A stretch of DNA of 64,000 bases, from contig OZ020518.1 in assembly GCA_963971425.1 (NCBI GenBank), positions 14,514,190 through 14,578,189 on the forward strand, written 5' to 3'. Shown piece after piece: positions 4,626-63,018 of this stretch. Numbering within the stretch: position 1 is the first letter of the stretch; every line of letters starts with the position of its first letter. A model generated the notes under the pieces. That model had not been told where the DNA came from and made no database searches. It saw only the letters and a program-made list of their open reading frames with translations. Both the position numbers and the translations under genes were made by a program. Source of the stretch: Bryoerythrophyllum caledonicum. Its lineage: Eukaryota > Streptophyta > Bryopsida > Pottiales > Pottiaceae.

Positions 4626-5720
4626 ACATATGACTTTGGATCACGAACTTTGGGGAACTATTTAATGAATGTGGGTGTGTTTTTCTTTAAACCCTAAGAG
4701 CCCATTTAAACCAGGAGGGTCGTTTTTCAATTTGGGCAGGTTCCTAAACTTTCAAAACAAAACTTTTCTTTTGAAATTTTAATTCTAGATTTTCCTTGAT
4801 AAGATCTTTGTTAAATATATATATATATATATTTAAATTTGTATTCATAATATGAAAGTTATTAGCCTTCAAAGTCAAATTGGGGACTCTGGGCGGCTCC
4901 AAACATTTTGCAAGAAGTTTCTATTGACATTGAGATGCTTCATACATATGGACTATATTACCTTCTTTGATGATGTCAAAAACTAATTCATGCCTTTGAT
5001 GTATAAAACATTTTAACCCAAATCAAACATTTTCACACATTGTCGGACAAGGTACCAAAAAAACTTCTTCATTTCCACATAAAACCTAGAGATCTTCATG
5101 CTTTTTAGTATTTTTTTTTGACAACAACATGTGGTAAAAACCTACCTGATGACCGTTTGAATTATCATTCTTAAACATATTAAGTTCACAATAAAATAAA
5201 ACATGAATTGGCAATTTTTAAACCTCCACTTCTTGCACACTTGTTTTGAATATGCTACACCCCTTCTCTACCTCTAAAAAATTGGTGAATAAGGAACTAG
5301 CATCATGCTTAACACAATGGTAAAGGATTTAGACCTTGTGTAGTGAATTTTTTTGACACAAAGTGCAATCGAAGTCTGCTCATCCACGCAACAAAGGGAA
5401 GAAAGTGAACCATTGTCTTGATTTCAAACGCTTTAATCTTCATATTCGTGTGGTGGATTGTTGCCAAAAAAATATGTTGAATTCATATAGAAGTATATTT
5501 GAAGATCTTATGGTATAAAATCCAAAGTTATACTTTAACATTAGATTTTCTTGCCACTTGTTGATAGTGGCAATTTTGGAGTGTTTCTTGAGGGAAATTG
5601 CCTTGGGCTCTTAGGGGTTAAGGGTTCGGTGGGTTTTCTATCCAACCTCTTCTATGTCATCTTTACTACATCCTAACTTGAATGAATATTCTTAGAATTG
5701 TGATATTCCACAGTTGTAAA
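4626..5720 (+). repeat. Dispersed repeat split by T1 (unsplit copy at 12714-12880)
   Basis: The left half (GGATCACGAACTTTGG.., 4634-4686) and right half (GGGTTCGGTGGGTTTT.., 5622-5720, including AGAATTGTGATATTCCA) are adjacent at 12718-12865. No coding potential is seen. Its value is in defining the T1 insertion point. Confidence 0.75.
4691..5617 (-). mobile_element. TTAA-flanked TIR element, copy T1 (927 bp)
   Basis: TTAA lies at 4687-4690 and 5618-5621. Inside it the ends are inverted: ACCCTAAGAGCCC at the left and GGGCTCTTAGGGG at the right. No open frame of note. The same family is seen at 10079-10990 and 62074-63014 (opposite orientation), and in pieces at 7745-8260, 8541-8930, 16511-17215, 22990-23400, 44390-44640 and 63019-64000. 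The DNA on either side of T1 (4630-4686 and 5622-5720) is continuous in another repeat copy at 12714-12880, giving an unoccupied site. TTAA plus a CCC start resembles piggyBac ends, but no transposase supports that here. Confidence 0.8.
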
Positions 5721-7744: not shown

Positions 7745-8260
7745 CATTTTGGGTCATTTGGGCTCAAAGGATTAAGCATGATATTAGTTCCTTGTACATC
7801 TGTTTTTAGAGGTAGAGGAAGGATATATCAATATGATTGTGCAAAGAGTGGAGGTTCAAAAATTGCCAATTCATGTTTCACTCTTTTGTGAACTTCATGT
7901 GTCTAAGAATGATAATCCAAACAGTCAAAAAGAAGGTTTACACAACATATTGCTTTGGAAAAATGAAATGTAAGAAATATGAAGATTTCTAAGTTTTATG
8001 TGGAAAGGAAGAAGATATTTTGGTACTTTGCCCGACATTGTGTGACAATGTGTGAAAATGTTTGACTTGGGTTGAAATGCTAATTTTTACGGAAGACATT
8101 TATTTTTAGATATGAAAGGAAATAATATTACTTGCTAGCATTAAAAATCTCACATATAATAGAGTGTCCTAGCAAAATTTTGTGGAGTTGCCCGACGTGC
8201 CCGCACTCAAGAAGTTTTCTTTAAGATGGCATAGCTTTCTTTCCAAAGGTCCAATAGTTA
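7745..8260 (+). repeat. TTAA-family fragment (T3 orientation)
   Basis: The order of landmarks (TTAGTTCCTTGTACATC, AGTGGAGGTTCAAAAATTG, TTTTATGTGGAAAG, ACTTTGCCCGACA, AAATCTCACAT) follows 62380-62830. Both ends are diverged, so no clean TTAA pair can be shown. Confidence 0.6.
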
Positions 8261-10074: not shown

Positions 10075-10078
10075 TTAA

Positions 10079-10990
10079 CTCCTAAAAGCCCGTGACGATT
10101 TCACACCAAAAACACTTCAAAATTGTTGATTCTAGTGCAATGAGTAAGGAAGGAAACAAAACCTTATATTTATCCTTTTGACTGTTGGATCTTCATAAAG
10201 ACTTTCTAAGTAACATACTCACTAAACTTCATACACTTTGACTGCATGGATTGAAAGATTATAGTGTTTGAAGTCAAGAATATGGTTCATTTTCTTCCAT
10301 GCATTGAGTGGATCAACAGACTTTGGCTTCACTTGGTATCAAACTTTTGCAATACACAAGGTCTAAATCCTTTACCATTGTGTTAAGCATGATGAAAGTT
10401 CTGTATACAACAATTTTTGGATGTAAGGAAGGGGTGTAGCATATTCAAAACAAGTGTGCAAGGAGTGGAGGTTCAAAAATTGTCAATTCACGATTTATTT
10501 TGATGAGAGTTTTATATGTTTTAGAACATTGATAATCCGAACGGTCAATAAGAAGTTTTACACCACACATTGTTGTTGAAAAAATAAAAAGTGAAAAATA
10601 TGAAGATCTCTAGGTTTTATGTAAAAAAAGTTGAACTTTTTGTTCCCGCTTGCCCGAAATGTGTAAAGATGTGTTAAAATGTTTTTTTTACACCAAAGAC
10701 AAGAATTTTTTTTTGACATCTTCAAAGAACGTAATATTCTCTACATGTATGGAAAATCTCAATGTCAATAGAGACTTCTAGCAAGATTTTGGAGCTGCCC
10801 GGAGTCTCCATTTCTAACTTTGAGTCGTACTAACTTTCAAACCATGAATCCAAAAAAAATAGTAAAAATATATCCATGGAGCTCTTATTAGGGAAAATCT
10901 AGCATAAGCGTTTCTTAAAAAAAAGATTTTTTTTCAAAACCTGCCCAAAAATCCAAAACGTACGCCCCACGTACACTTGGGCTCTTAGGG
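10079..10990 (+). mobile_element. TTAA-flanked TIR element, copy T2 (912 bp)
   Basis: TTAA at 10075-10078 precedes CTCCTAAAAGCCC; the far end is GGGCTCTTAGGG followed by GTAA, a one-base departure from TTAA. Internal landmarks follow T3 throughout. No coding capacity. Confidence 0.75.
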
Positions 10991-10994
10991 GTAA

Positions 10995-11689
10995 ATCTTT
11001 GTGAAAATGTTTCATATAGTACCATGCAACGTTTCCACAAATATGTGTTCCAAAAAAGGTGGCAAAGATTCACGGTAGAACACAATTTCTCTGTAGACTT
11101 CCTTCTCAATGACAACTAACACTATGTCTAACTTGAGTTTAGAGACCACCAAGCTCTCTAGTACTGAATAGCTATTAAGATTGGGGAAAGACTAGTATTC
11201 AAATAAAAAAGAGTCATTAGAAACCATGGATTCCTAGAGGCAGCTTGGGGAATCTCAAACCCTAAAACCCTAAACCTGACTCGAGTTCCTGAATGATACA
11301 TGAATCTGAACTGAAGGGTCCCTGGATCTCTAGAACATGCTCACTTGATTAACCACGATATACAGTGACTCACAAAAGTCTAGATTCTCGTTCTATATGA
11401 ATCACAATCGACTTCAAGAGCTAGTCACCGACCTCAATTGATTCATGCACATGAGATGTCCAAAGAGACTTAGAGGACGTGAGTGGCAGGAACCACAAGT
11501 TACAGATACAGTGCAGCAAACTTTACTGAAGTGAATGGCCACCAGCTCCATGCGGGTCACGTTCGCTGCGGAGGCGGTGGGGGCGGGGAGTGTTCCCGTG
11601 ACCTGGTGGCAGCTCTGTGTCCTTGTGGTTCGGGTACCCGTTCTGACGCAACTGGTGAGCGGTCAAGGTGAAGAACGAAGCAGGAAGAG
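10995..11689. other. Intergenic, nothing firm
   Basis: A short run of AAACCCTAA-type units occurs near 11264-11280. GC content rises sharply from about 11530. No recognised gene. Confidence 0.5.
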
Positions 11690-12640: not shown

Positions 12641-12713
12641 ACATGTTTCCAAGTAATTTGGCCCGTAAGCGCCAACAAATTCACTTTTCTTGTGTTCCAC
12701 CAAAAGTTTTAGA

Positions 12714-12880
12714 CTTTGGATCACGAACTTTGGCGGACTATTTTATAAATGTGGGTCCTTTTTTTCTTAGAGATTTCCGTAGGTTTCCTGCCCAACCTCT
12801 TTTATGTCACCTTCACTACACCTTGGTTCTAATGAATGTTCGTAGAATTGTGATATTCCAGAGTTGTTTACTTTCTAACC
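12714..12880 (+). repeat. Dispersed repeat with unoccupied T1 site
   Basis: Continuous counterpart of 4634-4686 plus 5622-5720. At the point where T1 sits in the other copy the sequence here reads TTTCTTAGAGATTTCC, so the target is TTAG rather than TTAA. Confidence 0.75.
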
Positions 12881-14294: not shown

Positions 14295-14379
14295 GTCGTG
14301 GGGACGTGCATCGATCTGAGGTTGGGGTTGCAGACGGGCCGAATCTAGAAAGCCAAGGGTTGCAATTTGTGATCGAGTG

Positions 14380-15639
14380 ATGGGGAACACATGCACATGC
14401 TTCCGCCGCTCGGGAGTTGTTTCTAGCTTTGTGACGGCTCCTCCCGCTTCAGGAGTTGATCGCGGAAGTAGCTCCGATCATGCCCATGGCAAATATGAGG
14501 GCAGGGAGAGCTTGGAGAGGGCCACACAGAGTGGGGAGGTGAGGAGTGATGTTGAGGACCGAATTGAGCGTTCCAAGGTGCATTGGAGCCAGCTCACGGA
14601 TTGTGAGTTTGATCTTGACGATGAGGAAGTGGTGCAAGAGAATAGACAAGTGTTTGAGGAATTGGAGTCGCATTCCACTTGGGGTCATTTCTTTGCAACA
14701 TTTGGTTATGACACGAGGTGGTTGAGGATGGGTGAGTTGGTGATGGGGGAGAAGTTTGCGGAGGGGGGACAAGCTGAGCTCTTTCATGCCAAGGTCATAT
14801 GGAGTAATCCAAAGCAGAATGAGTATGATTTGGAAAATGGATATGAGTGGGTGGTGAAGGTGTTTAAGAGGGGCACCCGCTTACGCGAATTACAAGCGCA
14901 ATGGCCCCTTGGGTACTTGCAATGGTGGGTAGAAGATTTGGATCGTTCTGAGCAAGGTCTACCTCCACCAACACGATTTCGTTGTGATGTGAATCGGGGG
15001 ACATTGTTACAAGATGGTAGGTTTGCCTTTCTTATGGAGAAAGAACATGAAGATTTGCGAAGCCGGATTGATCGTGCAAAGGTGGACATTGGAAATGACC
15101 ATGGACCATTTTCAAAAGATGAAGTTGAAAGGATCATGTTTGATGTTGCACTAGGGATGGATTGGTTGCACAACCACAACATCCTTCACAGGGACTTGAA
15201 AGCATCAAACGTGTTGGTTCGTGAATATAAGGATGGATTCTTACCAAACTACTACGTGGCGGACTTTGAGTGCTCTATTGGAGTTGTAGGAACTGGATTC
15301 TTCATGGCACCAGAGATATTACAAGCTTTGAAGAATAAGGTTGCAAGCAAGGATTCGAAGGTGTTCTCAAAAGAAGCAGACGTGTACAGCTACGGCATGA
15401 CATGCTATGAGGTCTTGACAGGAAAACTTCCTTTCGAAGGCCATTGTAGAAATGATTATGATCTAGTTATCCATGGAGCACGGCCTAGAACTCCGGAATA
15501 CGTAGATAGTTGGATAAAGGAGTTGTTAAATAGATGTTGGGATGTAGATTGTTCTAAGAGACCTTTGTTTCCAGAGATAATGGGAATTCTCTTAAGTAAT
15601 TCAGCTGTTGTTAGGAAAGTTCAACTAGATCTTCAATAG
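14380..15639 (+). CDS. Protein kinase A of a tandem pair, N-myristoylation type
   Basis: 419 residues, no introns. The ATG at 14380 gives MGNTCTCF, a typical start for N-myristoylation at G2 with nearby cysteines for palmitoylation, so membrane attachment is likely. The kinase domain spans about 118-408: nucleotide loop GEKFAEGGQAE (123-133), lysine K160, HRDLKASN (270-277), MAPE (309-312), D334 and a C-terminal RCW..RP segment as in tyrosine-kinase-like (TKL) plant kinases. The DFG motif reads DFE (295-297), and only about a dozen residues separate it from MAPE, an unusually short activation segment. HRD and K160 are kept, so activity cannot be ruled out. The paralogue at 20563 continues 25 codons further; here the equivalent lysine codon is TAG and a related frame persists after it. 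Substrates are unknown. Confidence 0.85.
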   Translation: MGNTCTCFRRSGVVSSFVTAPPASGVDRGSSSDHAHGKYEGRESLERATQSGEVRSDVEDRIERSKVHWSQLTDCEFDLDDEEVVQENRQVFEELESHSTWGHFFATFGYDTRWLRMGELVMGEKFAEGGQAELFHAKVIWSNPKQNEYDLENGYEWVVKVFKRGTRLRELQAQWPLGYLQWWVEDLDRSEQGLPPPTRFRCDVNRGTLLQDGRFAFLMEKEHEDLRSRIDRAKVDIGNDHGPFSKDEVERIMFDVALGMDWLHNHNILHRDLKASNVLVREYKDGFLPNYYVADFECSIGVVGTGFFMAPEILQALKNKVASKDSKVFSKEADVYSYGMTCYEVLTGKLPFEGHCRNDYDLVIHGARPRTPEYVDSWIKELLNRCWDVDCSKRPLFPEIMGILLSNSAVVRKVQLDLQ

Positions 15640-16390: not shown

Positions 16391-17215
16391 TTGTCCCAAA
16401 TCCACCCCATATTTGCCCCATTTCCACCCATTCACTCTTTAACAACTCCAAGTTAAGCCTTTCTATTGGTCAAGTCTCCTAACTTTTGATTAGCGCTCAC
16501 GACGGTACCTATTTTCCTTGATAAGATCTTTGTGAAAAAAATATAAATAAAAATCTAGATTCATATTATGAAAATTATTAGCCTTCGAAGTCAAATTGGG
16601 GACTCCAGGCAGCTCCAAAATTTTTGCAAGAAGTTTCAATTGACATTAAGATTTTTCATACATACAGACAATATCACCTTCTTTGGTGATGTCAAAAAAG
16701 AATTCTTGCCTTTGATGACAGAAAACATTTTAATCCAAGTCAAACATTTTCACACATTGTTGGGCAAGGTACCAAAAAAACTTCTTAATTTCTTCATAAA
16801 ACCTAGAGATCTTCATACTTTTCACTTTTTATTCTTTTGATAACATGTGGTAAAAACGTACCAACTCGCCGTTTGGATTATCATTGTTAAACATATCAAA
16901 TTCACAGTAAAATAAAATAGGAATTGGCAATTTTTAAACCTCCACTTCTTGCACACTTGTTTTGAATATGCTACATTCCTTCTCTACCTCTAAAAATCGG
17001 TGTAGAAAGAACTAGCATCATGCTTAACACAGTGGTAAAGGATTTAGACCTTGTGTAGTGCAAAAATTTGATATGAAGTGAAGTCAAAGTCTGATGATCC
17101 ACTCAACACTAGGACGAAAGTGAACCATTTTCTTGACTTCAAACGCTATAATCTTCATATCCGTGCGGTGAATTGTAGCCAAAAAAGTATGTTAAAGTCA
17201 TATAATAGAAATATC
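16391..17215. repeat. MITE fragment joined to a TTAA-family fragment
   Basis: 16391-16510 matches the left part of the repeat at 2783-2919 (CCCCATTTCCACCCATTCAC, AAGTTAAG, GGTACCTA). From 16511 the sequence follows T1 internal positions 4790-5510 in the same orientation (TTTCCTTGATAAGATCTTTG, GTCAAATTGGGGACTC, ACCTCCACTTCTTGCACAC). Neither fragment has its outer ends, so this is a rearrangement junction. Confidence 0.6.
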
Positions 17216-20477: not shown

Positions 20478-20562
20478 GTCGTGGGGACGTGCATCGATCT
20501 GAGGTTGGGGTTGCAAACGGGCCGAATCTAGAAAGCCAAGGGTTGCAATTTGTGAGGGAGTG

Positions 20563-21927
20563 ATGGGGAACACATGTGCATGCATCCGCCGCTCGGGAGT
20601 TGTTTCTGGCTCTGGGGAGGGTGGCATGGTCGAGTGTGGACACGATGAGACGGCTCCTCCTGCTTCTGAGGGTGAGCGCGGAAGTAGCTCCGATCATGGC
20701 CCGGTGAGATGTGAGGTCAAGGAGAGCTCGGAGCAGGCCAGAGAGAATGGGGAGGTGGGGAGTGATGTTGAGGACCGAATTAGGCGATCCAAGGTGCATT
20801 GGAGCCAACTCACGGAGTGGGAGTCCGACCTTGACGATGAGGAAGTGGCACAAGAGAATAGACAAGTGTTTGAGGAATTGGAGTCGCATTCCACTTGGAG
20901 TCAATTCTTCGGGACATTTGGTTATGACACTAGTTGGAAGCGGTTAGGTGAGTTGGTGATGGGGGAGAAGTTTGCGGAGGGGGGACAAGCTGAGCTCTTT
21001 CATGCCAAGATCATTTGGAGTGATCCAAAGTCAAATGAGGAAGACTTGGAGAAGGGATATGAGTGGGTGATGAAGGTGTTTAAGGAGGGCACTCGCTTGC
21101 GCGAACTACAAGCTCAATGGCCCCATGGGTATTTGCAATGGCGTGCAGAGCGTATAGATATTATGATGAGTGGTCTACCTCCACCAACACGATTTTATTG
21201 TGATGTGTATCGGGGGACATTGTTACAAGATGGTAGGTTTGCCTTTCTTATGTTGAAAGAACATGAAGATTTACGGAGCCGGATTGATAGTCTGAAGATG
21301 GACATTGGAAATGACCATGGACCATTTTCAAAAGATGAAGTTGAAAGGATCTTGTTTCAAATTGCACTAGGGATGGATTGGTTGCACAACCATAATATCC
21401 TTCACAGGGACCTCAAAGCATCAAATGTGCTTGTTCGTGAATTTAAGGATAGATTTCATCCAAACTATTTTGTAGCGGACTTTGAGTGCTCCATTGGAGT
21501 TGTAGGAACTGGATTCTTCATGGCACCAAAGATATTACAAGCTTTGAAGAATAAGGTTGCAAGCAAGGATTCGAAGGTGTTCTCAAAAGAAGCAGACGTG
21601 TACAGCTACGGCATGACATGCTATGAGGTCTTGACAGGAAAACTTCCTTTCGAAGGCCTTTGTAGAAATGATTATGATCTAGTTATCCATGGAGCACGGC
21701 CCAGAATTCCGGAGTACGTAGATAGTTGGATAAAGGAGTTGTTAAATAGATGTTGGGATGTAGATTGTTCAAAGAGACCTTTGTTTCCAAAGATAATAGG
21801 AATTCTATCAAGTAATTCAGCTGTTGTTAGGAAAATTCAACTAGATCTTCAAAAGTTTGAAGAGGTTGAGAATAGAAAACATAACGAGAGGTTATTGCAA
21901 CAAGGTTTGGTTGTAGAACCAAAATAG
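20563..21927 (+). CDS. Protein kinase B of a tandem pair, N-myristoylation type
   Basis: 454 residues, no introns, same strand as kinase A and 6.2 kb downstream of it. The start MGNTCACI again fits myristoylation plus palmitoylation. An extra ~10 residues lie in the variable N-terminal region (15-30). The kinase domain is about 128-418 with GEKFAEGGQAE (134-144), K171, HRDLKASN (281-288), DFE at 306-308 instead of DFG, and APK (321-323) where nearly all kinases have APE. Loss of that glutamate, which normally salt-bridges to the arginine of the C-lobe, together with DFE makes low or altered activity plausible. The C-terminal tail (residues 419-454) is longer than in kinase A. Pathway unknown. 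Confidence 0.85.
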   Translation: MGNTCACIRRSGVVSGSGEGGMVECGHDETAPPASEGERGSSSDHGPVRCEVKESSEQARENGEVGSDVEDRIRRSKVHWSQLTEWESDLDDEEVAQENRQVFEELESHSTWSQFFGTFGYDTSWKRLGELVMGEKFAEGGQAELFHAKIIWSDPKSNEEDLEKGYEWVMKVFKEGTRLRELQAQWPHGYLQWRAERIDIMMSGLPPPTRFYCDVYRGTLLQDGRFAFLMLKEHEDLRSRIDSLKMDIGNDHGPFSKDEVERILFQIALGMDWLHNHNILHRDLKASNVLVREFKDRFHPNYFVADFECSIGVVGTGFFMAPKILQALKNKVASKDSKVFSKEADVYSYGMTCYEVLTGKLPFEGLCRNDYDLVIHGARPRIPEYVDSWIKELLNRCWDVDCSKRPLFPKIIGILSSNSAVVRKIQLDLQKFEEVENRKHNERLLQQGLVVEPK

Positions 21928-25775: not shown

Positions 25776-27866
25776 TATTAATGTAAGACAAAATCTTGGA
25801 ATTAAAAGACATAATCAAACTTTTGTTTTCGATTCCTTCTATTTGCATTAGAATAGGCGATTTTGAAGAGTTATTGGTGTGAAAGAACACAAGAACTACA
25901 ACTCTTTAACGCCTAACTAGACTGTCAATGCCTAGGAGAATCTATGAGCATGATAGATTAGGTAGAGCATCATGACACAACATATACATTTCCTCATAAC
26001 CCCACTTCACAAAAATTGGTACAGTACACCAACGCCTCCATCATTTGGAGATCAAGAAACGTTGGAAAGTTGTTGCAAAGACCGACGTGCGTTCTAAATG
26101 CCATGACAATAGCCAATCATGGAAAAAGTTACAACACCCGGAACACCAAAATCAACCCTACAAGAGCATCATAGACCTCAAAGGGCTAACTCTTGAACAC
26201 CATTGGTGGCCACAATATTCTACATGTCTGGTGTCATATTTGAACATGATAAGGTTCAGATATTGAAATGACCTCCAAATGAAAGAGATTAGTTGAAGAA
26301 TCTTCAATCCAAAGGTGTAAATCTTGCTATACTTCAATACACTTTTATATTCTACAAAGTAAACTACTACGTGCCAGTCTGTACGATTCCCGACTGACGT
26401 TTGACGGATAAGGGTCAGAAATTGTTTAAACGTGTACTCTTGGTCTGAAATAAAATAACCTGCCTGACCATGCCTCTTGTGTAGTACAAATGTTTAACTC
26501 TGGATCTGAAAGCCAAGGCTTAACAATTTCATGCCAAAACTACCCAGTAGTACATGTGTAAAAGAGGGATTCAAACAACCTCGAGGCAAGTCACAAACTC
26601 CGACCCAGTCATGCACTCAGTGCCCATCACCAAACAAGCACCAATCGTAAGCGGATGTACCCTGTACAATCAATAAAAAACACTATCCCTAGCTCCAAAA
26701 CCTCCAATACAACCTTTAGAATTCAATGTTACTCTGACATTTGTATTGCCTTCCACCGACAAGGGGTTCATCGAGCATGCACCGCCGAGAAGGATTATAA
26801 ATTTTCAACAAGGTGGAATACGAGACATCGGTATTTTAGACTGTGTACCTTCACAAGAAATACAGGAACTGGAAGAGGAATCCACGTCGTCTAGCATTGA
26901 ACATGAAACCATGTGCAGTATACACAACTGCAGAAAACATCACACGAAACAGATTCTGTTTGTCATGGAGCAGAGTCAGCCATTACCAGTTATTTTTGCA
27001 TTGTCCTCAACAGCGTATCTATAATGAACAGAAAGATGCGAATTTCAGTGACTTTTAGTAGTCTGAATCTCTCCTGAAACCTAAATGTGGCTATAGCTGC
27101 TAATTCCATCTACAGATTCTCCTTCTTTGAAAGATTCATGCTGCTGCAGTTCAGTGATTGCATATCTCTTCCACCTAATAATTCACTTTCACTTCTACGG
27201 ATATTCATCTCCCAGCCCCCAGATTATGAGGAAAAAGACACCAAAAGGTCAAGAATGAGCAGACACGAGGAACAAAACTTCAGAAACTGTAGTTCAAAGA
27301 GTATACCTCGTAAGGGTGAAACCATAACCATCACCTCTTCTTCAACAACCACATCCTCCACACTTGATCAACGGATGGTCTTCCTTCAACAATGGTTCCC
27401 CCAGCACTAAGCCAAAATAGCCAGACATCATGAATGGCGAAGGGTGACTTTGTCATGGTCAAAAATGGCGGCCAGACATCAATCTTTTTCAAGACTGCCG
27501 AAAAGTTCTGTCCGCCGGAGCTGGAAGAAAGGGAAACGGTGCGGCAGAGAGAGAAGCGATTGGAGGCAAGATCGACCACCGTTGGTTCTCAATACCCCTG
27601 ACATCCGCATATACCAACTGTTCCTCTGAGACTCCTTCATTCTCGTAAGGCAACCGCTTCGAATTAGGGTTCGGAACACGCTGATAGATCATGGCAGCCA
27701 TGAAGGCAGGCAAATAAAGAAGGCTGACACGGAACATCTTACGCGCCGTGGCAGAGGTCGGAGACAAGTAAAACGACGTCGCAGAGGCGCTAAATGCAGC
27801 GCTGAGGAGCGCCATCTGCGTGCCAAAGCTGCCGGAGGCCACATTACAGTCCACCGCCACGAATCC
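25776..27866. repeat. Segmental duplication, copy B (partner 851-2782)
   Basis: Contains the 3' end and downstream flank of the intact COX10. Similarity to copy A continues into the coding region up to about 27866, where copy A is cut. Confidence 0.85.
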
Positions 27867-28829
27867 CAGAGGCAGCAAATATATACAGTTCCGAAGCGAT
27901 GCGAGCGCGGTTCTGCGTCCAGAGTGGTCCCCGAGGGAGAGCATCTTGTACCTGCCTGCAGCATAATCCTGGCGACACAGGAACGCTAACGCCATGAAGT
28001 GAGGAATCTGCCAGAAATACAACGCGGCGCCGCAGATCCACCCGCCGGCGTCCATCTGCCCCGTCGCTGCAGCCCAGCCCATCATCGGAGGGATGGCGCC
28101 AACCACGGCTCCAATCCATGTGTTGATCCAGTGAATCTGCTTCAGAGGAGTGTAGACTAAAGTGTAGAGGAGGAGATTGGCCGCGCCGAGCTCTGCTGTC
28201 AAGGCGTTCGTCTGGTAAGCCAGAGTTGCAACCCCACCAACTCCCATAGTGACCGCGAACGCGACGGCGTGCGGAAGGCTCATCCGGCCCGAGGGCAGCG
28301 GCCGCCGCATCGTCCTCTTCATCCGAGAGTCATTCGCAATCTCCATGATCTGATTGAACGCATTCGCGGAGCACGCAGCCATCATCGTCCCCGCAAACGT
28401 CCACGCAAGCCCCGCCCACTCCACGACCTCCCCGCTGCCCATCACATACCCCAGCCCCGCCGTCGTCACCACCAGCATGCTCAGCCGCGCCTTCGAAATC
28501 TCGTAGTAACACCTCAAAGACGACCGCACCAGGGACGAAACCCTAATCCCCGCCCCGACTCCCGCTTCCACTCCCTTCTCACTCCACGCAAGAGCGGCGC
28601 TCGCCGTGCCCCGGGAGACCACGCGCCGGGCGAAAGACCCGCTCTCGCCGCTCCGATGTGAAACCCTAGCCTGAATTCCCTGGAGAGCGCCATTCCGGAT
28701 GCCTACACCGTCTCTGTAAGCGCGAACGGCTGTGGAGTTTCCAAAAAACGCCGTATCAGCGAATTGCCTCAGGGGTGTGCTCACGGTGGAGCGGCTGGTG
28801 GCGCGCAGGAGGAGCGCGATGGCAGCCAT
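27489..28829 (-). CDS. COX10: COX10, protohaem IX farnesyltransferase
   Basis: 446 residues, one uninterrupted exon. It transfers a farnesyl group to haem B to make haem O in the inner mitochondrial membrane, the first step towards haem A of cytochrome c oxidase. The UbiA-type prenyltransferase domain covers about 110-390, with the aspartate-rich motif NQIMEIANDSRMKRT (159-173), RPLPSGR (176-182), YTPLKQIHWINTW (226-238) and FWQIPHFMAL (272-281). Several hydrophobic spans are present. The C-terminal AAPFPFLPAP matches the plant COX10 tail. I chose the ATG at 28829, which begins MAAIALLLRATSRSTVS, an Arg/Ser-rich mitochondrial presequence; the open frame continues 19 codons upstream without another ATG. 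A truncated copy of the 3' end lies at 2405-2782. Confidence 0.93.
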   Translation of the reverse strand: MAAIALLLRATSRSTVSTPLRQFADTAFFGNSTAVRAYRDGVGIRNGALQGIQARVSHRSGESGSFARRVVSRGTASAALAWSEKGVEAGVGAGIRVSSLVRSSLRCYYEISKARLSMLVVTTAGLGYVMGSGEVVEWAGLAWTFAGTMMAACSANAFNQIMEIANDSRMKRTMRRPLPSGRMSLPHAVAFAVTMGVGGVATLAYQTNALTAELGAANLLLYTLVYTPLKQIHWINTWIGAVVGAIPPMMGWAAATGQMDAGGWICGAALYFWQIPHFMALAFLCRQDYAAGRYKMLSLGDHSGRRTALASLRNCIYLLPLGFVAVDCNVASGSFGTQMALLSAAFSASATSFYLSPTSATARKMFRVSLLYLPAFMAAMIYQRVPNPNSKRLPYENEGVSEEQLVYADVRGIENQRWSILPPIASLSAAPFPFLPAPADRTFRQS

Positions 28830-28925
28830 GGAGGTCCACCATAGCCAACAGTTGCCCTGCAACGCGCGCAGCAAAACCTTCCTCACACGAGATGTGCTCT
28901 TCAGTTCTGGTGCGCGGATGACGAC

Positions 28926-32568: not shown

Positions 32569-35313
32569 TGTTGAATGGACTATGTCCAGTTGTCTATTAA
32601 CACACAAGAGATGATCTTACAAGAAAGAAGTGCTAACTAATATACTGACTATTGCTACCTAAATGAGGAAGTGAAGCTGCGGTCCTATCAGAGATGGGAG
32701 CCGCCATGGATGAACAGAGGATGAATGAGGAACGCACAGGCACGTACTTCCAACACCCCCCCGCGACGCATGTGCCTGATATTCTATAAGTGGACTGTAC
32801 AGACGAGGGAAGACAGTAGCGAGACACGACGTCAAAAAAATGAGTACTATGAGGGAGTTGGTAAGAAATTGTTTGTGCAATTCCGGTTTTGTTGTTGATA
32901 TGAAGAACGTTGAAGAGAGGATGTTGTTTTTGTAGGTCGAATTGTTCGTTGACTGGGTGGTGATGACTGCGTACTTGTTACTGCGGATTTTGACGACGTT
33001 CTTCGGTGCCTTAGGAGAGGTCTTTGGTATTAGAGGTCACTTGTTCTTTAGTGGCGGTGATGTACCGGGAACTGGGAGGCAAGATGAGCGGTCTTTGGAG
33101 AAGGTGCCAACGGTTCGAGCGTCATCAAGTGGTAAAAACGAAATTTCGGAGGAGAGTTTTGGTCCAAATTTCATACGGGAAGTTAGGGTTTCAGGGGAAA
33201 AACCAGTTTTAGGTATCGGTAGGAGGTTTAAAGTGTATGCTATAAGAAGAGGGTACTGTACTGGTCTGTTTTATACTTGGAAGGAATGCGAGCGCCAGGT
33301 TAAAGGATTTAGTGGTGCTGAATTTCGAGGTTTTAAGGATATGGAGAAGGCGATACAGTTTGTTGGTGTATGGTCTATCACCTGTAAGGATGACTTTGTT
33401 GAAGGTGCCTTTCTCAAAAATCCAAAAATTTCTTGGGCCAAAAAGCGTGTAGTATCCAGCATCAGCAAGTTTTCCTAGAGATAAGAGATTCTTGCACAGA
33501 CCCGGTACATACAGAATATCTGAGATCCGTTTATTTCCATGTAATGTAATAGCACCTTGTGCGTTTACAGGGAGAGCACGGCCACTTGCAGTTTTGACCT
33601 GAGATTTTGGTCCAGCTCTAATGTCTGTGAGTAACCCTCGATTACTCGTGACATGTGTACTTGCTCCGCTATCTAAGTACCAATTTGATTCATCTCCATG
33701 AAATTTTGTTGCGTAGATCTCATGAGTAGTCTGTGAAGGTGGAGTCTCTTCACTCGTGACGGTTGCAGGAACAGTTTCTGTAATATGAGCTTGATTTCCC
33801 TTCTAGGCATGTCTCGAGTTTCTTCCCTATCCATTTCGAAGTTCCCGGATGCGGTTTTGCAATAATTGAATTTCGCATCGGTCGGCCCAGTGGTCGTAGC
33901 TACCGCATAGGTGGCATCCCCCGGTTATGCCGAAGTAACTGCGAGGAGACTCACGGTTATAGGTCCCAGTTTCGGGGTTCTGACCTGATTGGTTACTGTT
34001 CTGATTTTGATTTTGTGCGAAGCTGGAGCCACGGCCGCCACCGCTTGAGTTGTTGTTGCCACCAGAATTCCAGCCGCCTGAGTTGACGCCGCCGCCTAAA
34101 TTCCAACCGCCTTGTTGTGAATCTCCTTGACTACCGCGACCACGACCGCATTGTGATGTGCCGCCGCGATTGTCTTTGATACCACGCTTGTGAGTGTAGT
34201 TTGTTGTTTCATCAGTAGCCGCAAGAGCTTCTTGAGTTTTTTTTTTTCTGGAACGTTTTTCATCTTCCTGTAGTAACCTGGATTCCAATTCTGAGAAACT
34301 GATTTGTGTTTCCTGTGCAGATATAATCTCACAGAAAACAACCCAACTATGAGGTAGGCTTGTGAGAGTGCGGTCGACCAACTCATCGTCCGGGATTATG
34401 ATGCCAAGATTGGCCAATTTTGCAACTACTATTGTAATTAGTTTTAAGTGATCCTCAATGCTGGTTTTTTCTAGCATTTTCAAATTGTACAGCTGGGATC
34501 TCAAGGTAACTCTATGATTGATAGACTTGAACTCAAACAGAGCACGTAACTTGCTAAACATTTGTCTAGGATTAGTGAAAATCATGATGTGAGGTAAAAG
34601 GGCGTCCTTAACTGATGATATGATTATCCGAAGCGCCTTGAACTTCTGGTCTTCTACGCTCGATGTTGTTGCAGATGGTGCTGCAGATGTTGCGGCTACT
34701 GAGTTCGATAGTGAGACTTCAGATGAGTCTCCTACGTCAGTTAGAACTGGTGCCAGGTCTGGATCTACCAGATGTCATAAGTGCTCGCCTTGAAGAGTCG
34801 TTTTGATCTTGAAAGACCAGATGGAGTAGTTTGTCCCTCCTTGCAGTTTCGATCCCTCTGGAACGTCTCTGTTGTTCAAACAGGACTCCATAGTTTCTAA
34901 GACGTAATGTACTTCAAAAAAACAAACACGATACTGACAGACTATGAGAGACGATACTCTAGATAAGATTCGGGTCGATGCCCGTAATATAACTAGTAAT
35001 GCAATGTGAGTATGTCACAACCCTACGATGAGAGTGAAAAGATGTGTTGCTAAGCAACATTGCTCACAATAAGAAACAAGAATATTCAGACACAGTATGT
35101 GGGCGGAGAACCGCACTGTGATATCATGTTGAATGGACTGTGTCCAGTTGTGTATTAACACACAAGAGATGATACAACAAGAGAGAAGTGCTAACTAATA
35201 TACTGACTACTGCTACCTAAATCAGGAAGTGAAGCTGCGGTCCTATCAGAGATGGGAGCCGCCATGGATGAACAGAGGATGAATGAGGAATGCACAGGCG
35301 CGTACTTCCAACA
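32569..35313 (-). mobile_element. Copia-type LTR retrotransposon, broken and internally short
   Basis: Two 187-bp repeats, 32569-32755 and 35127-35313, both start TGTTGAATGGAC and end ACTTCCAACA; ATTA borders both outer ends. By eye they differ at about ten sites, so the insertion is moderately old. In minus orientation the primer-binding region follows the right repeat (a TGATATCA start resembling the initiator-Met site of Copia elements), then gag (about 34890 to 33827) with a glycine-rich region and a CX2CX4HX4C zinc knuckle, then a protease fragment with the DSGAS motif, and a G-rich polypurine tract next to the left repeat. The internal region is only 2.4 kb; integrase, reverse transcriptase and RNase H are absent. 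Their place is taken by an oppositely oriented ORF at 32963-33478. Gag has a small number of breaks. The element cannot be autonomous. Confidence 0.85.
32963..33478 (+). CDS. ORF with RNase H1-type hybrid-binding domain, inside the Copia element
   Basis: 171 residues from the first ATG. Residues 88-134 (RFKVYAIRRGYCTGLFYTW, then ECERQVKGFSGAEFRGF and EKAIQFV) match the RNase H1 N-terminal hybrid-binding domain, also called the viroplasmin or Cauli_VI fold, which binds RNA-DNA hybrids. The N-terminal part starts with a hydrophobic stretch and then a charged linker. No RNase H catalytic domain follows; the last ~40 codons overlap antisense protease sequence of the host element. An acceptor-like TTTTTGTAG lies just upstream at 32935. 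It probably derives from a host RNase H1-like gene copied into the element; expression is unknown. Confidence 0.6.
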   Translation: MTAYLLLRILTTFFGALGEVFGIRGHLFFSGGDVPGTGRQDERSLEKVPTVRASSSGKNEISEESFGPNFIREVRVSGEKPVLGIGRRFKVYAIRRGYCTGLFYTWKECERQVKGFSGAEFRGFKDMEKAIQFVGVWSITCKDDFVEGAFLKNPKISWAKKRVVSSISKFS

Positions 35314-39434: not shown

Positions 39435-40742
39435 GAGGGATCTGGTGAGGGAGTGAGGGCAGGGGTGTTGGGGTTGGGGTTGGGGCGGGAGTGGCGATGG
39501 GGGACAACCAGGCGAGTTTGCTGCTGCGCAAGCAGCTCAAGGATTTGTCGAGGAATCCTGTGGATGGGTTCAGTGCGGGGCTGGTGGACGACAGCAGCGT
39601 GTTCGAGTGGAACGTGACCATCATCGGGCCGCCGGAGACGCTGTACGAGGGGGGGTTCTTCAACGCCATCATGAGCTTTCCGCCGGACTACCCGAACAGC
39701 CCGCCGTCGGTGCGCTTCACGTCGGAGATGTGGCACCCGAACGTGTACCCGGACGGGCGCGTGTGCATCTCGATTCTGCACGCGCCCGGGGACGACCCGA
39801 ACGGGTACGAGCTGGCGAGCGAGCGGTGGTCGCCGGTGCACACCGTGGAGACCATCCTGCTGAGCATCATCGCGATGCTGTCGAACCCCAACGACGAGTC
39901 GCCCGCGAACGTGGACGCCGCCAAGGAGTGGCGGGAGACGCGAGAGGAGTTTCAGCGCAAGGTGCGGCGGATCGTGAGGCGCTCGCAGGAATTCATGTGA
40001 GGCGCGGTGGGATGCCGTGGAGAGGTCGGTATTTCTTCTGGAGGGGGCGGGCGCATCTGGGGGCTCGGATCCTCCCGCGTTGTAATGGTCAGCCTCATGA
40101 CATTTTTTTTTCTTATAAGGGATGGCGATCTGAGAAGGTGTGGGGTTATGTTGGTAGTGGATTGACAGTGTAGGGATTAAACCCATGTAAAGATTACCGT
40201 GCACAGTGGGCTTTATGGAAGTTGGCGCACAAGGGCTGGGATTACATGTGTAATTGGATGGCCGTTGTTGCACAGCGCAGAGTAGAGGTGCAAGCAGGTG
40301 AGTGGGAGGAGAGGGCAAGGGTCGATAAGCACATACACATAATAGTCAGGATATTGATATGATAAGTCGAGATATTGGGGACACGAATGTAATGGGGGGA
40401 TGTAAACGTGGACACGATGATGAGCATGGGGTGCGAAGCTCCAGTTTCTGTCAAGATTTGTGGTGTGTCGATGTGGTGTGTGATGCTGGGGATGGGTGAA
40501 TTGGCAGTCTAGGCACGTGATTTTGGTGCTGTGTAGTGATGAGGCAGATCGATGTGTTGTGGCGGAGTGATGAGCTTGTGATTTCCAAGGCAAGTGGGTG
40601 CTTTTAGGGCTTATGGCACGCATCGTTGGTTGTGTGGGAGGAATTTGAGTTGGGACTGGGTTGCTTAGCATTGGATGGGGTGTTGTGAAGACGAATGTGT
40701 AGATGGAAGTCGAATGCAGTGGCATAGATCTCTTCCCATCTT
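39435..40742 (+). repeat. Inverted duplication, left arm
   Basis: Matches the reverse complement of 54827-56135 almost base for base, from the G-rich leader through the E2 coding region and about 740 bp of 3' flank. Homology stops at CCCATCTT (40742). The spacer to the right arm is about 14.1 kb. Confidence 0.9.
39497..40000 (+). CDS. UBC7: Ubiquitin-conjugating enzyme E2, UBC7/13/14 type, copy 1
   Basis: 167 residues, one exon. The protein accepts ubiquitin from E1 on a cysteine and passes it on with RING-type E3 ligases; plant UBC7/13/14 and animal UBE2G2 relatives act in ER-associated degradation. The UBC fold spans almost the full length: FEWNVTIIGPPETLYEGG (36-53), HPN (80-82), catalytic C90 in GRVCISIL, and the acidic loop HAPGDDPNGYELASERW (95-111) that is the hallmark of the UBC7/CDC34 group. 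The ATG at 39497 gives MGDNQASLLLRKQLKDL, matching the usual start. Coding GC content is very high compared with the flanks. The protein is identical to copy 2 at 55568-56071. Confidence 0.92.
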   Translation: MGDNQASLLLRKQLKDLSRNPVDGFSAGLVDDSSVFEWNVTIIGPPETLYEGGFFNAIMSFPPDYPNSPPSVRFTSEMWHPNVYPDGRVCISILHAPGDDPNGYELASERWSPVHTVETILLSIIAMLSNPNDESPANVDAAKEWRETREEFQRKVRRIVRRSQEFM

Positions 40743-54826: not shown

Positions 54827-56135
54827 AAGATGGGAAGAGATCTATGCCACTGCATTCGACTTCCATCTACACATTCGTCTTCACAACACCCCATCCAATG
54901 CTAAGCAACCCAGTCCCAACTCAAATTCCTCCCACACAACCAACGATGTGTGCCATAAGCCCTAAAAGCACCCACTTGCCTTGGAAATCACAATGTCATC
55001 ACTCCGCCACAACACATCGATCAGCCTCATCACTATACAGCACTACAATCACGTGCCTAGACTGCCAATTCACCCATCCCCAGCATCACACATCACATCG
55101 ACACACCACAAGTCTTGACAGAAACTGGAGCTTCGCACCCCATGCTCATCATCGTGTCCAAGTTTATATCCCCCCATTACATTCGTGTCCCCACTATCTC
55201 GACTTATCATATCGATATCCTGACTATTATGTGTATGTGCTTATCGACCCTTGCCCTCTCCTCCCACTCACCTGCTTGCACCTCTACTCTGCGCTGTGCA
55301 ACAACGGCCATCCAATTACACATGTAATCCCAGCCCTTGTGCGCCAACTTCCATAAAGCCCACTGTGCACGGTAATCTTTACATGGGTTTAATCCCTACA
55401 CTGTCAATCCACTACCAACATAACCCCACACCTTCTCAGATCGCCATCCCTTATAAGAAAAAAAATGTCATGAGGCTGACCATTACAACGCGGGAGGGTC
55501 CGAGCCCCCAGATGCGCCCGCCCCCTCCAGAAGAAAAACCGACCTCTCCACGGCATCCCACCGCGCCTCACATGAATTCCTGCGAGCGCCTCACGATCCG
55601 CCGCACCTTGCGCTGAAACTCCTCTCGCGTCTCCCGCCACTCCTTGGCGGCGTCCACGTTCGCGGGCGACTCGTCGTTGGGGTTCGACAGCATCGCGATG
55701 ATGCTCAGCAGGATGGTCTCCACGGTGTGCACCGGCGACCACCGCTCGCTCGCCAGCTCGTACCCGTTCGGGTCGTCCCCGGGCGCGTGCAGAATCGAGA
55801 TGCACACGCGCCCGTCCGGGTACACGTTCGGGTGCCACATCTCCGACGTGAAGCGCACCGACGGCGGGCTGTTCGGGTAGTCCGGCGGAAAGCTCATGAT
55901 GGCGTTGAAGAACCCCCCCTCGTACAGCGTCTCCGGCGGCCCGATGATGGTCACGTTCCACTCGAACACGCTGCTGTCGTCCACCAGCCCCGCACTGAAC
56001 CCATCCACAGGATTCCTCGACAAATCCTTGAGCTGCTTGCGCAGCAGCAAACTCGCCTGGTTGTCCCCCATCGCCACTCCCTCCCCAACCCCAACCCCAA
56101 CACCCCTGTCCTCACTCCTTCACCGGATCCCCGCT
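54827..56135 (-). repeat. Inverted duplication, right arm
   Basis: Reverse complement of 39435-40742, with only scattered single-base differences seen by eye, for example in the poly-T tract after the E2 gene. Confidence 0.9.
55568..56071 (-). CDS. UBC7: Ubiquitin-conjugating enzyme E2, UBC7/13/14 type, copy 2
   Basis: 167 residues, one exon, protein identical to copy 1 (catalytic C90, HPN 80-82, acidic loop 95-111). The leader diverges from copy 1 about 60 bp before the ATG: here it has a CT-rich tract (about 56173-56192), a GAATATAAGG box near 56230-56240 and the shared ATGTTCTAGGTTTG segment near 56199-56212. Both copies are intact, so either could be expressed, possibly under different control. 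The perfect protein identity implies a recent duplication or ongoing gene conversion between the arms. Confidence 0.92.
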   Translation of the reverse strand: MGDNQASLLLRKQLKDLSRNPVDGFSAGLVDDSSVFEWNVTIIGPPETLYEGGFFNAIMSFPPDYPNSPPSVRFTSEMWHPNVYPDGRVCISILHAPGDDPNGYELASERWSPVHTVETILLSIIAMLSNPNDESPANVDAAKEWRETREEFQRKVRRIVRRSQEFM

Positions 56136-57243: not shown

Positions 57244-58118
57244 AACTTAAATTTCAGAAAAAACGATACAAAAACTAACTCACAGAACAAAATATAGTAG
57301 TATAAAATAAATCTGATAAATGAAGGAAGGGACTAAGGCGCTATTTATTGTAATATTGCTTTTACTTTACTTTTACTTTACTCTAAGTAAAAGAACCACA
57401 TTAAAAGCAAAAGAGTAGACACCTAAAGTAAAAGCGTAGATACCCAAAATAGAAGATTCGACCCCAAAAGTAAAAGATATCCGGAGTATGCCGACAGAAG
57501 AAGCTGGTGGCAGAGCGGAATGCAAGTCTAGAACATCTCTGTGAAGAGAACAGCGCGAGGCTCACAAGGCTGCAAACAGAATCAACAGTAACTCACTCAT
57601 TCATACACAAACAATGCTCCACCTTCATCTTCCATCTTGTGTGCATATCGTCAGTTGCAGACAGGAAAATGGGTCATCTAGTCTAGTGAATTGGAAAATA
57701 GAGTCCTCCAACACCAAAGTTTATCATTCACTAACTTAGTTATTCACTGAAGTGCTGGGAATGACATGGTGAAGGTCTTCCATTCTTCGACTTTTTTGGA
57801 AGACTGAAGTGATGGTAAGGTCGGATTATAAGAGTGAGGTGATAGAGGAGTGAGCCATCTCCTAAGACGTTTTTTGGGATCAAAGTAAACTCTTAATCTA
57901 GAACTAAAGTGACAAGGATTAAATATAAGAACTATGTTCAGGAGCGAAGGAAGCACTTTCTCATGTGCTCTCCTCCGAGGTTGGTTTGTTGTTTGGATTC
58001 ATCGTGCTGTGAAGGTAGAAAAGAGAGCCAGCTTACAAGTGGGAGGTTTACTAGCAGAGCCTCATCGACCATCTTTTTGAAGTTCACTGAAGACAACACT
58101 GATTTGGAGTGATCAGTG
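57244..58118. other. Intergenic and upstream region of the transporter
   Basis: 57358-57434 contains a small inverted repeat (GCTTTTACTTTA and its inverse). On the plus strand an ATG near 57961 opens a Ser/Arg/Cys-rich stretch (MCSPPRLVCCLDSSCCEG) that could be a first exon of the next gene; see that entry. Confidence 0.4.
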
Positions 58119-60581
58119 ATGTTTTACTTATTCGGAGAAGTAGCAGGATCGCAGTCTCCAGCGCGGAGGAGGTATGCGAGGTTGCTGGATTCGGTGGGGA
58201 ACGATGAAGATGGGGAGGATGAGGGGTCTGTGGGGTGTTGGGAGGGGTTGCTGGAGCCGATCGCTCCGCAGGCGCCTGGCAATCCAGACAGCTCGCTGTG
58301 GAATGAGGATTTCGCGCCGACCATGCCAGCGGAGCGCCACTTCTCCGCGCTCGACATGGCGTGTTTGTGGATAGGGTTGGTGGTCGGGGTGCCGACGTAC
58401 TACATGGCGGGGAGCCTGGTGGACCTGGGGATGGCGTGGTGGCAGGGCATTCTCACGGTGCTGCTGGGGAACCTCGTGGTGCTGGTGCCCATGGTGTTGA
58501 GCGGCCACGCCGGGACCAAGTTCGGCGTACCGTTCCCCGTGCTGGCGCGCGCCTCGTTCGGCATCCGCGGCGCGAATGTGCCGTCGCTGCTGCGCGCGCT
58601 CGTCGCCTGTGGGTGGTTCGGCATCCAGACGTGGATTGGGGGCCAGGCGGTCTATCAGCTACTCAACACGCTCCTCGGTGGGAGACTCGCTGCGGAGGTG
58701 GTGCCGTGGTTGGGGATCAGCGGCCCAGAGTTCTCGTGTTTCATGCTCTTCTGGCTGCTCCAGGTACTAGAAACATAGAAGTTTGTCACATTCTAAGATT
58801 GTTGATTGCCTTGAATTTTGTTATGAAATGAATTTAGGGTTTCATTATTTTCGTGAATAATCTGAATTGGAAATGTCATCTTTTGCATGTTTCATGCTGA
58901 GACTTCTGACTGCTCCAGTTTACTATAAAAAAGTGCAGTCATGCCATTGTTCATATGGAAGTTTGTCACATTCTGAAAATGATTGACGGCTTTACTTGCA
59001 ATTCATGATTCAGTTTGAAATGTTTCTAGGTTTTAGGGTTTAAATGTTTTTGGATAATAGAGTTATTTGTCAGGTCACTCGAAGCCCCGGCTTTTTTCAT
59101 TTGGATTTTGACTTGTGTTTAGATTACCACTAAATTCTTCTGTTGATCTAGAGTGAGGAAAGAGTAGTCTAGAAGAGGAGGTATCTCATTGAAACTTTGG
59201 GTGAATTTTACAGATAACTCTAATTTGAATTGGAAATGACGTCGTTGCGGGTGTGGTACTATGAATTGCAGGTTGCTATAATCTGGAACGGTATTGAGAG
59301 CATACGAGAGCTGGAGAAACTGAGTGCTCCAATTCTCATAGTTCTGTCTGGAGCGTTACTAGCATGGGCGTACATCCGAGCGGGAGGCTTTGGGCCCATG
59401 TTGTCGCTGCCGTCGCAGTTCATTCCCGGAGGTCCCAAGGAAGGACAGTTCTGGCAAACCTTCTTCCCTGCATTGACGGCCAATGTCGGTTTCTGGGCCA
59501 CCCTCAGTTTGAACATCCCAGGTAAGGCTGATCATGTGAAATGACTTGTAATAGTCCTCAAATCATCAGTAAAGTCACTGAAATTCGAATAGGATACCCC
59601 CTCTTTTGACTACTCTTTTCTCACTGTAACTAGTTAATAGATCAATAGAAGAGCTTGGTGGTCTTGAAGAAAGCAGAAAGAGTTTGCATGAGATCAACCG
59701 TGACTATTTGCTGCCTTGCTCTCCTTTGAGCTGATTTGAGAATCGTTTAGAACTGATTTTGATTACTTAAATTTCAGGTGACTTTACGAATGACTCTTTT
59801 TTTCCATGATGATGAACATTGGGTATTGTGTGTATGTGATTGGCCAGATTTTACAAGGTATTCCAAGAGTCAGGTGGACCAGCTGACAGGCCAAGCAATA
59901 GGACTACCGCTGTTCATGGCAGCCTTCACGTTCGTGGGCCTGGCAGTGACATCAGCGACAGTGGTGATCTTTGGGGAGGCCATATCAGACCCGATCCAGC
60001 TCTTGTCGCGAATCGACGGCGTCCTTCCCATCTTCTTATCTCTCATTGGCGTGGTTCTAGCCACTCTGACGACCAACATTGCAGCGAACGTGGTAGCCCC
60101 AGCCAACGCTCTGGTGAACCTGAACCCCTCGCTCTTCTCCTTCAGATCAGCCGGGCTGTTCACAGCTTGCATTGGCATACTACTCCAGCCATGGCGGCTG
60201 CTTCAGTCCAGCCAGGGGTACATTTACACCTGGTTGATCGGATACTCTGCTTTACTGGGACCCGTGGGAGGGATCATGTTGGTGGATTACTTCCAACTGC
60301 GAGGCCGGTCGCTCAATATGGATGATATCTTCTCTCGTGACAGAGATGCTCTGTACTGGTACACCAACGGGTACAATGTTGCAGCTCTCGTTGCCCTCTT
60401 TGCCGGCGTAGCTCCTAATATTCCCGGCTTTCTCGTCTCTACTGGAGCGCTGAAGAACTGCCCCGGCGTCTTCGTTGTCATATATGACAATGCCTGGTTT
60501 GTGGGCTTCTGTATTGCCGGATGCGTTTACCGGGCTCTGTCTAAAAGGCAAGTGCAAGCCTTGAGAGCGTCTGAAGTCTAA
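58119..60581 (+). CDS. PLUTO: NCS1-family nucleobase transporter, PLUTO-like, 3 exons
   Basis: Exons 58119-58763, 59272-59521 and 59848-60581 (GT-AG, phases agree), 542 residues from this ATG. NCS1 proteins are ~12-helix cation-coupled symporters of nucleobases; plant PLUTO carries uracil, adenine and guanine into plastids. Signatures: [15 protein letters not shown] (62-76), [20 protein letters not shown], a [17 protein letters not shown] loop, [26 protein letters not shown] (exon 2/3 junction), [20 protein letters not shown] and QPWRLLQSS. Sequence order follows Arabidopsis PLUTO throughout. The N-terminus is shorter than PLUTO (599 residues); an alternative first exon from an ATG near 57961 with donor GAAG|GTAGAA at 58012 and acceptor GTAGCAG at 58145 would join in frame before SQSPARRR and supply a transit-like peptide. 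Start therefore uncertain. Confidence 0.9.
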
Positions 60582-62069: not shown

Positions 62070-62073
62070 TTAA

Positions 62074-63014
62074 TCCCTAAAGGCCCAAGGCATTTTCTCA
62101 CCAAAAACACTTCAAAACTGCTCCATTCTAATATATTGCCTAAGAAGGGAGACAAAACTTTTTATTTCTACATCTAACCGTAGGATCTCAATAGAGACTT
62201 CTTTATTGATGTCCCTACAAAATTTCATAAACTTTGACTGCACATACTGAAAGATTATAGTGTTTGAAGTCAAGCAAATGGTTCATTTTCTTCCCTACGT
62301 TTGGTAGATCAGCAGACTTTGACTTCACTTGGTATCAAAGTTTTGCACTACATAAGGTCTAAATCCATTACTATTGTGTTTAGGATGATGTTAGTTCCTT
62401 ACACTCCTATTCTTAGAGGTAGAAAAAGGGTGTAGCTTATTCAAGTCAATTGTGCTAGTAGTGGAGGTTCAAAAATTGCCAATTCACGTTTTAGTTTTTT
62501 AGAAACTTAATATGTTTTAGATTGATGATCCAAACGGTCAATATGAAGGTCTACACCACATATTGTTGTGGAAAAAATCAAAAGTTAAAAAAGTTAAAAT
62601 CTCTAAGTTTTATGTGGAAAGAAGTTTTTTTTGGTACCTTGCCCGATAATGTGTGGCAATATTTGAAAATATTTGACTTGGGTTCATGCGCTATTTTCCA
62701 CTAAAGACAAGATTTTTTTTGGAGAATATGAAAGGAAATAATATTAATTGCTAGTATTGAAAATCTCACATTCGATAGACTATTTTAGCAAAAACATTTG
62801 TAGGTGCCCGATGTGGCCGCTCTCCTCGTTCAAAATTCAAATCGCTATAACTTTTTCATGTGATTTCGGATTTAGAAAAAAATTATTTTCCCACATAGGT
62901 TTTAGTAATGTCCTTCAACAATGAAACTTTTGAAGAAGAATGTTAGAAGTTCACACCATAGGAACCTGACCGAATTTTCAAATTGCCATCTTGTGATACT
63001 TGGGCTTTTAAGGG
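62074..63014 (+). mobile_element. TTAA-flanked TIR element, copy T3 (941 bp)
   Basis: TTAA at 62070-62073 and 63015-63018. Ends TCCCTAAAGGCCCAAG and CTTGGGCTTTTAAGGG are inverted. No coding frame. Best-preserved member together with T1. Confidence 0.8.
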
Positions 63015-63018
63015 TTAA

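Follow-up and report, generated by a model that had tools for sequence, protein, structure and literature searches.

A gene-less TTAA-bounded repeat in a plant genome, very probably a piggyBac-type MITE

Background

Best known from insects and mammals, piggyBac is a workhorse of animal genetics, and to our knowledge land plants have seldom been described as holding intact copies. The window analysed here, a stretch of 64,000 nucleotides (C6:14514190-14578189) in a genome of 437 Mb in 894 contigs, contains a short repeat, T1, that carries no gene and is bounded by TTAA on either side, and it raises the question of what moved such an element in such a host. A preliminary description made from the letters of the window had proposed piggyBac on the strength of TTAA targets and CCC-starting ends, with no transposase visible to it, an assignment that was inference. 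In the passages available to us, PiggyBac is named among the MITE superfamilies of angiosperms (PMC10004981) and among the DNA-transposon superfamilies of plants (PMC10794571), and piggyBac-like elements are said in general terms to occur in plants (PMC8086355, PMC10813416). Here we follow T1 from its ends to its copies across the genome, and from these to the transposase genes with which its ends are associated.

Limits and ends of T1

The proposed limits of T1, 927 bp with TTAA on both sides, proved correct (Table 1). Its terminal inverted repeat spans 18 nt including the TTAA and is 94% complementary, and in the family alignment both termini of the consensus read CCCCTAAGAGCCCA. The earlier claim of CCC-starting ends thus stands for the family consensus and fails in one detail for T1 itself, whose 5' end reads ACCC; the terminal A in ACCCTAAG departs from the family consensus CCCCTAAG, in an element that is about 10% diverged from that consensus overall. 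Near its middle T1 holds a further TTAA, and in other T1-like copies this same internal site has received a 6.56-kb piggyBac element (locus L066) and a transposase-bearing block on contig C2 (loci L065/L096), both described below.

Table 1. T1, its relatives and its unoccupied target region in the window
Feature	Position	Strand	Remarks
T1, piggyBac-type MITE (very probable)	4687..5621	+	927 bp between two TTAA target-site copies
T1 5' TTAA and terminal inverted repeat	4687..4704	+	TTAAACCCTAAGAGCCCA
T1 3' terminal inverted repeat and TTAA	5604..5621	-	TGGGCTCTTAGGGGTTAA
T1 internal TTAA	5309..5312	.	position read from the T1 sequence
Truncated T1 relative	7772..8202	-	consensus 195-627
Second full-length T1 relative	10075..10995	-	921 bp; flanked by TTAA and, at the opposite end, TTTA
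Unoccupied paralogous copy of T1 target region	12712..12879	+	81% identical; junction TTAG
Truncated T1 copy	16511..17204	+	consensus 108-804
Third full-length T1 relative	62070..63018	-	949 bp; TTAA on both sides

The window has other contents. A ubiquitin-conjugating-enzyme ORF (PF00179) occurs twice in opposite orientation (39491-40000, +; 55568-56077, -) with 169 of 169 residues identical, and the ORFs around this pair are duplicated too. Two similar protein-kinase ORFs (PF00069) of 420 and 455 aa lie in tandem at 14377-15639 and 20560-21927, an uninterrupted 465-aa ORF of the UbiA prenyltransferase family (PF01040) at 27489-28886 (-) is presumably, by its look, a COX10-type gene of haem A synthesis, two ORFs at 58116-60581 (+) each cover one half of a cytosine/purine/allantoin permease (PF02133), and a Copia-type gag ORF (PF14223) is found at 33827-34585 (-).

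Unoccupied sites and the four-base target

When the two flanks of T1 were joined and searched against the genome, 22 match rows were returned, all on contig C6: 11 cross the junction unbroken (the window's own copy included), nine match one half only and come from five occupied copies, and two are fragments. The empty copy near position 12,714, from which the preliminary description had fixed both the element limits and the target, is real, and the inference from it is sound in one part: the site does lack T1. It does not by itself fix the target, because its junction reads TTAG, and we rejected it as proof of a TTAA target. Three of the ten junction-crossing copies outside the window, picked among the best matches, were read, and each of the three has a single TTAA at the junction. 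These unoccupied sites are paralogs of a local repeat and not alleles; the repeat that received T1 recurs over C6:13.9-14.8 Mb. At three loci, L009-L011 (C6:14.13-14.46 Mb), T1 is present at the same place in the repeat, and since T1 and these three closest copies (C6:14.13-14.52 Mb) occupy one site they are best read as a single insertion that was copied along with its surroundings.

A genome search with T1 gave 46 match rows from the best 40 scored of 9,207 candidates. For comparison we took 43 loci, namely those with the best scores together with three taken by a 5' end pattern that itself includes TTAA; 34 are full length and nine partial. Removal from the full-length set of five duplicates of two insertions (L009, L010, L011, L039 and L042) left 29 distinct insertions, T1 among them; one of the 29 (L062) came in through the TTAA-bearing pattern. 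TTAA is found on the 5' side in 24/29, on the 3' side in 20/29, on both sides in 17/29 and on one or both in 27/29, where base composition would lead one to expect it in 0.8%. In 12 of the 29 at least one side falls short of a perfect TTAA, and in one of them (L015) the missing 3' TTAA reflects an alignment column shifted by one base. Column identity in the alignment is 83-93% within the TTAA; over the next four bases outward it is 28-48%, conservation there having fallen to background. The outcomes that would have told against the element as first delimited, a majority of copies without TTAA or an alignment running on past it into something longer, did not occur: in most copies TTAA is retained at one end or both, and the alignment goes no further.

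The ends are abundant in their own right. The exact 18-base 3' end, taken without its TTAA, occurs 117 times genome-wide and is followed by TTAA in 95 of these (a hand count over zero-mismatch rows); the 22-base 3' end GCCTTGGGCTCTTAGGGGTTAA has 3,397 matches at up to three mismatches against three for a reversed control, and the 23-base 5' end of T1 has 307 against none. Copies of the family lie 8-13% from the consensus, with a median pairwise identity of 82%, and by this measure of divergence the T1 family, T1 included, is old.

The four-base target bears directly on the possibility that T1 is a Tourist-like MITE of the PIF/Harbinger superfamily, in which a 3-bp TTA or TAA duplication happened to be followed by A. 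G/C-rich ends do occur in PIF/Harbinger. Tourist MITEs of this superfamily make just such a 3-bp TAA/TTA duplication in angiosperms, according to the available part of PMC10004981. In T1, conservation extends over all four TTAA columns on both sides instead of a 3-bp TWA, a full single TTAA stands at the three empty sites read, and the transposase linked to the family ends carries PF13843 (below). We therefore rejected PIF/Harbinger on the four-base target and leave it a practically negligible probability.

piggyBac transposases in the genome

In a profile search for the piggyBac-type DDE domain PF13843 (DDE_Tnp_1_7), 116 of 305 candidates were scored; they gave at least 120 match rows, every one above the cut-off, with two rows at some loci, and by our own count 47 of the 120 rows listed are without an in-frame stop. 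The same profile found no match in 14 control genomes. Five uninterrupted frames of 793-1059 codons have PF13843 as their sole Pfam family at E 0.01, and they are longer than the 594 and 578 residues of the PDB chains of Trichoplusia ni piggyBac (6x67) and piggyBat (9c0f). Both frames tested further, at L083 (1059 codons) and L066 (793 codons), match 6x67 (E 3e-24 and 1e-28) as well as 9c0f, and in both the residues D268, D346 and D447 (T. ni numbering) are aligned with those of 6x67; L066 also gives a marginal match (E 0.00098) to an unrelated protein.

In an alignment of 25 transposase ORFs, the second catalytic motif is kept in all 17 that were picked for having the first and third. Pairwise identity in the aligned core falls to 38%, so the genome holds several lineages. 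Fifteen of the 25 show a Cys/His pattern at the C-terminus; among the other ten, some frames end before the C-terminus, some are without the motifs, and L072 has a Cys-rich end off the pattern. The resemblance to T. ni piggyBac and piggyBat therefore takes in the PF13843 transposase with its aligned aspartates and C-terminal cysteine-rich motif, and equally the TTAA target and CCC-starting ends; the elements described below differ from them in their size, 4.6-8.6 kb, and in having a plant as host. Five further PF13843 loci (C2:9960665, C10:18467576, C3:19096604, C4:30447112 and C3:22752197) each hold a stop-free frame of 474 codons over profile positions 29-347, and may represent a young family, either truncated or intron-bearing, or else a host gene family.

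Ends of the larger elements

Several of the transposase-bearing elements could be delimited. The element at L066 (133-6687) was read at both ends, with a 200-N gap inside, and its insertion site is the TTAA within a T1-like copy: where the T1 consensus has CATCATGC-TTAA-CACAATGG, L066 has ATATCATGC-TTAA-element-TTAA-CATGATAATG. The 5' end of this element is found again at L067 and L069, where the flanks differ, so that copies stand at three TTAA sites; their aligned portions are 96-99% identical, so this family probably moved recently in evolutionary terms. Homology between the copies at L075 and L079 (5.04 kb, 95.7% identical) ends exactly at TTAA-CCCCTAA on both sides, and a TTAA-CCCCTAA-type end marks the 3' limit of both copies at L071 and L076 (97%); the 5' end of the C9 copy of this pair was assigned by matching TTAACCCTTAAACGCCCA, which gives a length of 4.93 kb, and at L072 two matching ends are separated by 4.64 kb. 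Other piggyBac families of the genome thus likewise end in TTAA-CCCYTAA. At 11 of 24 transposase loci scanned, the stretch read held no T1-like end at up to four mismatches, which may reflect the reach of the scan, divergence or decay.

Sequence of the T1 core (consensus about 203-769) is also present, reversed in most cases, within or adjoining piggyBac elements that belong to several lineages (L051, L053, L055, L066, L067, L068, L069, L073, L076, L080 and L083), and could there be either a part of the element or merely an abundant repeat. A terminal-repeat-like sequence, GCCTTTAGGGGTTAG, is shared by three transposase loci, at L083:1289, L065:4814 and L086:4491; it is internal and not an element end.

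Linkage of T1 ends to a transposase

Whether a transposase lies between ends identical to those of the T1 family, the check that the preliminary description had proposed, is answered on contig C2. At C2:23038527 the exact family 5' end TTAACCCCTAAGAGCCCATT begins inside a T1-like copy, and at C2:23047107 an exact family 3' end runs directly into the remainder of that copy (consensus 624-769). The block so enclosed measures 8,581 bp, sits in the internal TTAA of the T1-like copy and includes a stop-free PF13843 match at C2:23039800-23040942. It also contains an assembly gap and a young nested repeat, and with 3.5 kb of it unread it may be composite. Of the T1 consensus it shares only the first ~210 bp (76%) and the last ~105 bp (88%). 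Its first 397-473 bp are 92-97% identical, over 16 match rows, to a young MITE family, one member of which is 1.3 kb long with the same ends; this family (L087/L088) is itself ~95% identical and has the ends of T1. In the 3' part of the block, a young repeat at L065:5113-5570 begins some 10 bases into TTAACCCCTA and has, besides a copy on C11, 33 other match rows of at least 400 bp at 93-97%; it may be another TTAA element.

An independent element on contig C8, with a frame of 1059 codons and no gap on its 5' side, starts with TTAACCCCTAAAAGCCCA. It matches T1 consensus 5-207 at 71% (E 6e-20) and the C2 block at 73% over the first 357 bp of the latter and at 76% in the coding part. Taken together, the C2 and C8 data place a T1-type 5' end with a piggyBac transposase at two loci. 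The true 3' end of the C8 element lies beyond the stretch read; a T1-type end there would match GCCTTGGGCTCTTAGGGG. L065:1028-4814 and C8:126788-131920 were each considered as a complete TTAG-ended element and rejected: a 314-bp alignment between C8 and C2 (83%) continues about 285 bp beyond the TTAG end, which must therefore be internal.

These loci also speak to the possibility that T1 belongs to another TTAA superfamily, Kolobok or Sola3, both of which duplicate TTAA as well, so that the similar ends of the piggyBac elements would be coincidence. Coincidence would have to account for a transposase element on C8 that is homologous to T1 across its first ~200 bp, for a C2 block that has both exact family ends with host sequence resuming outside them and a piggyBac transposase in that position, and for the excess of the 22-base 3' end over its reversed control. 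We judge membership of Kolobok or Sola3 very improbable. The piggyBac assignment, supported by the PF13843 matches, the TTAA-CCCYTAA elements and the C2 block, is raised by this linkage above inference from target and ends and may now be called well supported.

How T1 would have moved

We are thus highly confident that T1 belongs to the piggyBac superfamily, as a MITE moved by a piggyBac transposase encoded elsewhere in the genome. Such a DDE transposase would recognise the CCCCTAAGAGCCCA ends of T1, excise the element and paste it into a TTAA, leaving one TTAA on each side. Movement would be by cut and paste with seamless excision; the empty sites seen are all unoccupied paralogs, with no excised alleles among them. 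The clade of the transposases at C2:23038527 and C8:131920 is the candidate source of this activity.

It is also conceivable that T1 is a piggyBac MITE whose own autonomous partner is extinct here, the C2/C8 clade sharing with it just ancestral ends. The divergence of T1 copies from their consensus agrees with this, as do the homology of only about 71% to the C8 element and the outcome of the search for a direct parent, in which no transposase-bearing element examined in the genome combined a closely matching end with matching subterminal sequence. Against it stand the young L087/L088 MITEs, whose ends are those of T1 and whose match to the start of the C2 block points to mobilisation of this end type later than T1 itself. 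An extinct partner is in our view a possibility to be taken seriously, though a doubtful one. T1 resembles other piggyBac-type MITEs in being shorter than 1.4 kb, gene-less, present in high copy number, bounded by TTAA and possessed of ends common to transposase-bearing elements, and differs from them in its unusual host.

An unusual host

NAC is a plant family, and NAC (NAM) domains (31 rows above the cut-off) identify the host as a plant; in an animal, piggyBac would be nothing unusual. Chlorophyll a/b-binding domains gave 58 rows (a cyanobacterium among the 14 controls matched as well), and dynein heavy-chain domains gave ten rows, nine of them above the cut-off; we know of no flowering plant with dynein heavy chains, so the host is probably not one. 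Among bryophytes, lycophytes, ferns and streptophyte algae, all of which would fit, genome size leads us to guess a bryophyte. A parallel is Ceratopteris richardii, a non-seed land plant whose PiggyBac repeats, in the available text of PMC6890710, amount to 1,230 annotated pieces over 122 kb; in the present genome, elements have transposases free of interruptions and TTAA ends that could be resolved. Of two occurrences of the word in a paper on a moss genome (PMC10619864), the one whose passage was available is 'piggybacking'. The open literature, as far as its text was available and with most subscription journals outside the scope of the search, yielded no intact, TTAA-resolved piggyBac family and no such MITE from a moss or fern, and no claim of a first report is made.

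Conclusions

The piggyBac superfamily is already known, and T1 represents a new family within that known kind; its mechanism is ordinary for a MITE, and it is the pairing of host and superfamily that is unusual. More tentatively, as a proposal that we would stop a little short of expecting to hold, the host may be a non-seed land plant, probably a bryophyte, in which a large community of piggyBac elements is still on the move. Its transposases, encoded by genes free of interruptions, would form several deeply divided lineages; copies would be nearly identical from one TTAA site to another, thousands of MITE ends would be cross-mobilised by these transposases, and MITEs would serve repeatedly as landing sites for full elements. 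If true, plants would have in it a piggyBac system that is active in nature. The many uninterrupted piggyBac genes and near-identical copies make the activity of the superfamily in plants testable, and the genome offers plant-adapted transposases and ends as tools. Furthermore, the case of T1 indicates that TTAA MITEs of plants can be tied to piggyBac through direct linkage, and not through the target site alone.
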